Assembly (NCBI RefSeq): GCF_002873135.1
Contig: NZ_MCVI01000025.1
Location: 1 to 14,123 of the forward strand
Length of the DNA: 14,123 nt
Direction of reading: 5' to 3'
From: Shewanella sp. 10N.286.48.A6
GTDB lineage: Bacteria; Pseudomonadota; Gammaproteobacteria; Enterobacterales; Shewanellaceae
The stretch's first letter is position 1, and every line of letters starts with the position of its first letter. Positions 2,281 to 14,120 of the stretch are shown in pieces. Made by a program: the position numbers and the translations under genes. The notes under the pieces are model-generated. The model saw only the letters and a program-made list of their open reading frames with translations. It had not been told where the DNA came from and made no database searches.

Positions 2281-2665
2281 TGAGGTTAACCGTGGCATAT
2301 GTGTTAACGAGTTCATGCAAACGTCTAATGCTAATATTTACGCTTTAGGGGATTGCGCTGAATTTGAAGGGCAAGTAAAAGCGTATTTACAACCGACCTT
2401 AATTAGCGCTGCTGCATTAGGGAAAACATTATTGGGAGAAGCAACCAAGGTGACACTGCTAAATATGATGGTCAAGGTTAAAACCCCTAATTATCCCATT
2501 CAAATAGGTGGTAAAACCGACTCTAGTTCAGTATCACGTTGGAATCTTGATGTTCAATCACAAGGGATTGTCGCTAAAGGCTATGACAGCGCCGATAACA
2601 TGGTGGGATTTGTGGTGACTCGAGATTGTACTCAACAAGCATTCTCTTTGTTAAGACAACTCTAA
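2279..2665 (+). pseudogene. norW: 3' remnant of norW (flavorubredoxin reductase)
   Basis: The frame carries the C-terminal third of NorW, the NADH:flavorubredoxin reductase that feeds electrons to the nitric-oxide-reducing flavorubredoxin NorV. Recognisable pieces are NRGICVNEFMQTS, the FAD-binding YALGDCAEFEGQ segment, LQPTLISAAALGKTLLG, and VKVKTPNYPIQIGG. The protein ends normally at QAFSLLRQL. The homology begins near 2279, upstream of the first ATG (2315), and a stop lies in frame at 2267-2269. The N-terminal FAD fold and the NADH domain are therefore missing and this cannot be an active reductase. A normal terminator still follows the stop codon. Residual translation of a 116-residue piece from ATG 2315 is possible but would have no obvious function. 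Confidence 0.85.
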
Positions 2666-13727: not shown

Positions 13728-13804
13728 TGGTACTCGCCAGACTTGAACCGGCACGCCCTATTTTAAAACGATGAGGGATTGTTATATCTTGTCATTCATT
13801 TAGC
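13728..13804 (-). pseudogene. Decayed tRNA-Leu copy A
   Basis: Read on the minus strand the copy ends GGGCGTGCCGGTTCAAGTC then TGGCGAGTACCA. It keeps a T-arm (GCCGG/CTGGC, one G-U pair) and a CCA end. The acceptor strand is shortened by three bases, and the 5' half and anticodon arm are unrecognisable except for ACAAG and ATCCCTC pieces. It cannot fold as a tRNA. Confidence 0.75.
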
Positions 13805-13817
13805 AAATTTCAGATAC

Positions 13818-13848
13818 AAAAAAGCCTCAACTAATGTTGAGGCATTTT
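13818..13848 (-). terminator. Terminator between tRNA-Leu copies A and B
   Basis: On the minus strand GCCTCAAC and GTTGAGGC pair perfectly around an ATTA loop, followed by six T. It is homologous to the hairpin at 13980-14011 with compensatory changes, and it would end any transcript running through copy B. Confidence 0.88.
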
Positions 13849-13886
13849 GGCACCATACTGACGTATATTTTTGATAATAAAACTGA

Positions 13887-13966
13887 TGGTACCCGAGGCC
13901 GGACTTGAACCGGCACGCCCTATTTTAAAACGATGAGGGATTGTTATATCTTGTCATTCATTGAGC
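13887..13966 (-). pseudogene. Decayed tRNA-Leu copy B
   Basis: An 80-base minus-strand sequence follows tRNA-Leu(UAA) along its length: TTTGCTCAATG at the start, GACAAG and AATCCCTC in the middle, GGCGTGCC, and the 3' part GGTTCAAGTCCGGCCTCGGGTACCA in pieces. The T-stem is perfect (GCCGG/CCGGC), and the acceptor 3' strand and CCA are intact. The 5' acceptor strand no longer pairs and the D and anticodon arms are broken, so it should not be a working tRNA. Confidence 0.78.
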
Positions 13967-13979
13967 AAATTTCAGACAC

Positions 13980-14011
13980 AAAAAAGCCCCGACTAATGTC
14001 GAGGCTTTTTT
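13980..14011 (-). terminator. Terminator of the tRNA-Leu transcript
   Basis: On the minus strand GCCTCGAC pairs with GTCGGGGC (one G-U pair) around an ATTA loop, followed by six T. It starts about 24 bases after the tRNA CCA end, so it should end the tRNA precursor and define its 3' trailer. Confidence 0.93.
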
Positions 14012-14034
14012 GCACCATACTTACGTATGTAATA

Positions 14035-14120
14035 TGGTACCCGAGGCCAGACTTGAACTGGCACGCCTATTAAGCGAGGGATTTTAAATCCCTTGTGTCT
14101 ACCGATTCCACCACTCGGGC
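14035..14120 (-). tRNA. leuZ: tRNA-Leu, anticodon UAA
   Basis: An 86-base class II tRNA with CCA encoded. The acceptor GCCCGAG pairs with CTCGGGT (G1-U72 wobble as in E. coli tRNA-Leu UAA), with discriminator A73. The anticodon stem GGGAT/ATCCC encloses the loop TTTAAAA, giving anticodon UAA. The long variable arm is CTCGCTTAATAGGCG-like, and the T-arm is GCCAG TTCAAGT CTGGC. It corresponds to leuZ of the E. coli glyW-cysT-leuZ cluster; whether Gly and Cys tRNAs precede it lies outside the window, which begins only three bases before the mature 5' end. Confidence 0.96.

Follow-up and report, generated by a model that had tools for sequence, protein, structure and literature searches.

Tandem arrays built like the E. 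coli rtT repeats are found, in varying form, at leuZ, the gene for tRNA-Leu(UAA), in many species of the genus Shewanella. The rtT repeats have so far been treated as a curiosity of a single locus. We regard the leuZ repeats as probably an rtT-type tandem array with recombination-driven turnover and concerted evolution, in which spare terminators are the likely working effect. The 3′ half of the terminal tRNA gene, its trailer and its intrinsic terminator would have been duplicated in tandem, possibly by slippage or unequal crossing-over, and copies would be gained, lost and homogenised by recombination inside the array in many Shewanella species. The result would be a series of spare intrinsic terminators downstream of a presumably strongly transcribed tRNA operon, which may benefit from having several of them. 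The tRNA ends within the units do not act like mimics of tRNA. With the length of arrays, their decay and their sequence classes on view in dozens of species, the genus makes it possible to test both the formation of such arrays and selection on serial terminators or tRNA 3′ ends.

Organisation of the leuZ array

The window, the whole stretch of 14,123 nucleotides from Shewanella sp. 10N.286.48.A6 analysed here, contains a single intact tRNA gene, a leuZ-type tRNA-Leu(UAA) recognised by both ARAGORN and Rfam. The contig ends 3 bases upstream of it, which is why the window shows leuZ alone of its operon. The initial annotation had described two tandem units of 148 and 159 bp behind the gene, and re-reading the sequence returned the same lengths (Table 1). 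What it called a decayed tRNA-Leu is, more precisely, a tRNA 3′ half that starts close to the 3′ side of the anticodon stem; in the second remnant the acceptor strand is partly lost.

Table 1. Features of the leuZ array, with positions in the window.
Feature	Position	Strand	Basis
tRNA-Leu(UAA) gene, intact	14035..14120	minus	ARAGORN, Rfam
Unit 1, 148 bp: trailer, terminator, linker and tRNA-Leu 3′ half	13887..14034	minus	sequence reading, repeat search
leuZ trailer	14006..14034	minus	sequence reading, fold prediction
Intrinsic terminator 1: GCCTCGACATTAGTCGGGGC + T6, then GTGTCTGAAATTT	13980..14005 (stem 14005-13986)	minus	sequence reading; part of unit 1 fold
tRNA-Leu remnant 1, anticodon-stem 3′ side to CCA; last 20 nt = 13906-13887	13887..13943	minus	
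Unit 2, 159 bp	13728..13886	minus	sequence reading, repeat search
Intrinsic terminator 2: GCCTCAACATTAGTTGAGGC + T6	13818..13843 (stem 13843-13824)	minus	sequence reading, consensus scan
tRNA-Leu remnant 2, acceptor strand partly lost (GGCGAGTACCA)	13728..13781	minus	sequence reading

The two units share a repeat of 131 nt with 93% identity at a spacing of 162 bp, and a tRNA-end repeat of 34 nt is present in three copies at spacings of 162 and 148, one copy being 71% alike. Read from the sequence, GTGTCTGAAATTTG or GTATCTGAAATTTG opens the linker, and three substitutions, all of which preserve pairing, distinguish the stem of terminator 2 from that of terminator 1. A consensus scan reported terminator 2 as the only one in the units, terminator 1 being absent from its output. 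The array has no open reading frame of at least 80 aa. The leuZ trailer is predicted to fold back onto the CCA end (GUACCAU/AUGGUGC; window 14040-14012, minus strand). Across the 174 leuZ copies, 51 trailers contain ATGG; after shuffling, 8.4% of trailers do. Elsewhere in the window, an open reading frame of 116 aa (2315-2665, plus strand) holds little beyond a rubredoxin-binding C-terminal domain (PF18113, E 5.6e-20) and is possibly the end of a truncated reductase gene.

Further units were found in the same genome (G000; 4.65 Mb in 104 contigs). Contig C38 has at least three units at its end, leading into an aspartate/aromatic aminotransferase gene; C48 has one unit at its start, leading to a GDSL-lipase gene; and C1 stops 24 bases past the leuZ of a pgsA-glyW-cysT-leuZ row (pgsA by TIGR00560). 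Among the fetched loci of 174 leuZ copies from the genus, pgsA is found in 70 and the aminotransferase gene in 35, and the lipase gene also in 4 of the pgsA-linked ones. From the contig ends of C38, C48 and C1 and the neighbour genes of leuZ across genomes, we conclude that this genome probably has three leuZ operons with units; a pattern for the leuZ 5′ half found only two copies in it. Four of its contigs (C1, C25, C38, C48) end in or beside arrays. Such arrays may break short-read assemblies, and unit numbers in these genomes are possibly undercounted.

Distribution of arrays in Shewanella

A strict pattern scan of the genome contigs of 84,980 species, from which the records of the window's own genome were possibly left out, returned 8 stretches, all in Shewanella records and under 6 names. 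A related pattern matched in 17 of 129 genomes of the genus. After the surroundings of leuZ had been fetched, the set comprised 174 distinct leuZ copies in 80 genomes, identical copies within one genome (gene and next 120 nt) having been merged from 210. Some genomes of this set had been fetched for their hits. G040-G092 make up a list-order sample of 53 genomes, from which two contig-end leuZ places with nothing useful downstream (G066 C9, G077 C20) were left out.

A scan with the leuZ 3′ 30-mer over up to 1200 nt downstream of the 174 copies (187,964 bp) yielded 122 remnants with at most 9 of 30 mismatches and 105 with at most 7. The reverse complement and block-shuffled DNA each gave 0 hits against these 122, so the repeats are not due to chance. 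At the limit of 7 mismatches, a remnant lies behind 53 of the 174 leuZ copies and in 33 of the 80 genomes, one of which (G076) represents an insertion flank. In the list-order sample, at least one unit is present in 21 of the 53 genomes and behind 37 of 118 leuZ copies, and at least two units stand in one array in 14 of the 53. The longest arrays have five remnants. Units are 114-279 bp long, and the set used for unit comparisons (n = 120) leaves out the 2 of 122 remnants lying more than 330 nt from the preceding end. Among the titles and abstracts found in the literature, none describes leuZ arrays in Shewanella.

This distribution bears directly on whether the array is a recent neutral duplication in a single lineage. 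The window's units would suit such an origin, being 93% alike over the 131 nt and each other's nearest neighbours, with unit 2 decaying. We consider it very unlikely: conservation in related genomes, set beforehand as a test, was found at the level of species, with units in 21 of the 53 genomes and unit classes common to several species. The classes are defined by the variable arm; G064 shares the class seen in the window's genome, six genomes have one nearly identical to it, and since classes cross species in this way the arrays are not all recent. The genus-wide distribution thus contradicts the single-lineage reading, while neutrality itself is possible.

The arrays are nearly restricted to the terminal tRNA gene of the operon. 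The same loci hold 113 leuZ remnants as against 7 of glyW and 0 of cysT, and the process therefore belongs to the terminal gene with its terminator. The glyW remnants are one degenerate tRNA-Gly each in the leuZ loci of G003, G014, G048, G053, G065, G090 and G142; the seven resemble one another in an altered anticodon region and a T-arm insertion.

Turnover of units and retention of terminators

Units are most alike within their own array. Of 102 units compared without their last 30 nt, 66 had their nearest neighbour within their own array, 15 at another place in the genome and 21 in another genome, whereas shuffled labels gave a mean of 1.6 same-array neighbours. Concerted evolution or repeated local duplication follows from this pattern, to which the 21 units of multi-unit arrays with their nearest neighbour in another genome form a counterpoint. 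As the units as a rule repeat the terminator, tandem duplication explains them directly.

Terminators are retained inside the arrays and tend to decay at their distal edge. A terminator was recognised behind 59 of 61 leuZ genes, behind 55 of 61 remnants in internal position and behind 40 of the 60 that close an array; the median energy behind internal remnants is the same as for leuZ's own, and the lower number behind last remnants indicates that the distal edge decays. A comparison limited to units with a recognised terminator covered 99 pairs in 32 arrays, 16 of them divergent. In these 16, identity is 0.88 for terminator hairpins, 0.71 for trailers and 0.57 for linkers, and 91% for the last 20 nt, a figure that is favoured by the way units were found, via their last 30 nt. 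Counted by alignment, with 4 arrays lacking a reference hairpin, 24 of 61 changed terminator pairs in internal units still pair, 11 of them by two-sided change, and 57 of 140 in last units, 17 of them two-sided; single random changes would be expected to retain pairing in about 18%, and 35 of 108 changed pairs in the T-stem do so. Pair-by-pair constraint is therefore modest, for which reason selection on terminators beyond the first one is suggested but not proven.

Conservation of the tRNA 3′ block

The best-kept part of a remnant is its end. Compared with their own leuZ, the 120 units are 87-98% identical over the last twenty positions and 64-82% at each of the ten preceding ones, with the step sitting around the T-loop; the preserved tRNA part often extends back to the anticodon stem, and the 5′ half of the tRNA is missing from the units among the remnants listed. 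Sites located through an independent upstream motif keep the last 20 nt at 7 mismatches or fewer in 106 of 131 cases (control, 4 of 453), and 27 of these 106 differ at five or more of the ten bases before. A separate scan found 40 remnants in 24 genomes in which the T-loop or the 5′ strand of the T-stem is altered and the end retained.

The strands of the T-stem are unequally conserved. Among 99 remnants with a comparable T-stem, 21 of the 120 with a replaced T-stem 5′ strand having been left out, conservation favours the 3′ strand in 20 of 29 genomes and the 5′ strand in 4 (sign test p = 0.0015). Of 108 changed T-stem pairs in these remnants, 73 no longer pair. Eight of the 16 divergent arrays preserve the last 20 nt better than the preceding ten bases and 4 preserve them less well, a weaker contrast than that between the T-stem strands. 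The remnants preserve a linear sequence rather than a T-arm.

Many remnants, e.g. in L132 (G041), L177 (G008) and L210 (G089), have in place of the T-loop a similar CTCTTTnnTAnnAAGAGTA-like sequence that is common to several species. Structured hairpin inserts in the T-loop were considered and rejected, the altered T-arms scoring a mean z of -0.43 against shuffled sequence (n = 40). We likewise made no use of an apparent tracking of the own leuZ allele by the T-stem 3′ strand but not by the 5′ strand (9 against 1 among 15 filtered remnants, with both strands differing in 5 more), which could be point mutation.

The linear nature of the kept sequence is evidence against decoys for tRNA-binding enzymes. 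The initial annotation had proposed decoys for CCA-adding enzyme, RNase P/Z or EF-Tu, or processed small RNAs, and a selected RNA function of this kind would agree with the retention of the CCA and last 20 nt in most remnants. Folding points partly the same way: unit 1, taken together with the last six bases of leuZ, has a better fold than its shuffles (z -5.2), and for unit 2, taken together with the bases before it, the difference is smaller (z -2.4), the terminator being included in both folds. Neither the acceptor helix nor the T-stem pairing of a tRNA decoy is maintained in the remnants, however: the 5′ half is absent, most changed T-stem pairs are broken, the T-stem strands differ in conservation and 40 remnants are altered in the T-loop or T-stem 5′ strand. 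Most units are moreover preceded by a terminator, and the consensus scan found no promoter-like site within the window's units. The decoy proposal is not upheld by these results, and we consider a selected function of the tRNA-like ends rather improbable.

Comparison with the 3′ETS of E. coli leuZ

A sponge for small RNAs is known from the same place in E. coli, where the external transcribed spacer 3′ETS-leuZ pairs with RyhB (PMC6191717). The units could be amplified versions of it: the operon is the same, glyW-cysT-leuZ, as is the position behind leuZ, between the CCA and the terminator. The E. coli K-12 stretch read has no repeats, unlike the Shewanella arrays, and RF00057 gave no RyhB in any of the 12 Shewanella genomes searched, with scoring limited to 150 candidates in each. 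A RyhB has been reported for S. oneidensis. Duplex energies were computed between a RyhB core taken from a different family of the same order and 113 distinct leuZ trailers, with duplicate, short and N-containing trailers left out. They lie near those of shuffled trailers (mean z -0.38; 6.2% at z <= -2), whereas the E. coli 3′ETS-leuZ as positive control gave -22.6 kcal/mol and none of 200 shuffles was as good. The Shewanella trailers thus show no excess RyhB complementarity in an analysis whose positive control passed; a RyhB sponge was rejected, and an amplified sponge in general appears very unlikely.

Relation to rtT and to attachment sites

The likeness to E. coli tyrT and its rtT repeats, drawn in the initial annotation, holds at the level of architecture. 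At tyrT-tyrV, too, tandem direct repeats lie right behind the last tRNA gene of the operon, and each unit ends, as read by eye, in the last ~19 nt of the tRNA (tRNA-Tyr there), from after the T-loop to the CCA. In the window, unit 1 ends in such a block and unit 2 has lost part of it. The tRNA and the genus differ, tyrT in E. coli as against leuZ in Shewanella. Shewanella units, unlike rtT, carry their own intrinsic terminator, and the tRNA portion in them frequently extends as far as the anticodon stem, whereas the rtT block runs from about the T-loop to the CCA. Rfam RtT had no match in the window, either at the gathering score or at E <= 5, so we class the array as sharing the architecture only and not as an RtT member.

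A block from about the T-loop to the CCA, comparable to the one that ends the rtT units, could also be the attachment core of a tyrosine recombinase, and the array a stack of attachment sites left by or used by integrative elements. Such sites likewise consist of displaced tRNA 3′ fragments with a common core starting at about the T-loop. Two genomes speak for integration at this gene. In G075 (L179), less than 0.1 kb downstream of leuZ, there is a reading frame that matches Phage_integrase (PF00589, E 2.3e-9), and in G076 (L180) ~1.17 kb separate leuZ from a second leuZ 3′ end, behind which stand a trailer and a terminator resembling their counterparts in G074 and G084. Judged from these loci, leuZ seems to serve as an insertion site in Shewanella. 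The integrase-bearing G075 is, however, without an array, and the closest PF00589 match in 7 array-bearing genomes (G000 not among them) is ~13 kb from an array, with no integrase near the arrays examined. The units are also short, without a recognised gene and usually with a repeated terminator, and this fits tandem duplication directly. An origin as stacked attachment sites is accordingly unlikely, if less so than the alternatives discussed above.

Tandem duplication with turnover inside the array, our preferred reading, does not by itself account for a sharply kept last 20 nt beside variable trailers. One speculative reading, to which we give little credence, makes tRNA 3′ ends from the T-loop to the CCA the target of a process, be it a site-specific recombinase or some other template-directed one, by which tandem arrays are built and repaired again and again in unrelated lineages (Shewanella leuZ, E. 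coli tyrT); the block of 19-20 nt would then be the element and the rest of the unit its cargo.

A motif behind the terminators

Behind the T-tract of several terminators stands the motif GTRTCTGAAATTT, in the window at 13986-13967 and 13824-13805 (minus strand) and elsewhere in the same genome at C3:75939-75958, C20:274123-274142 and C72:20317-20336. Among these terminators are those of a tRNA-Thr and a tRNA-Asp. A pseudo-acceptor pairing of this motif with the 3′ strand of the remnant, seen in the fold, was dropped for this reason. At up to 2 mismatches, GTRTCTGAAATTT has 12 matches including the array units, against 0 for the reversed control, and it resembles the TCTG element described for E. 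coli terminators.
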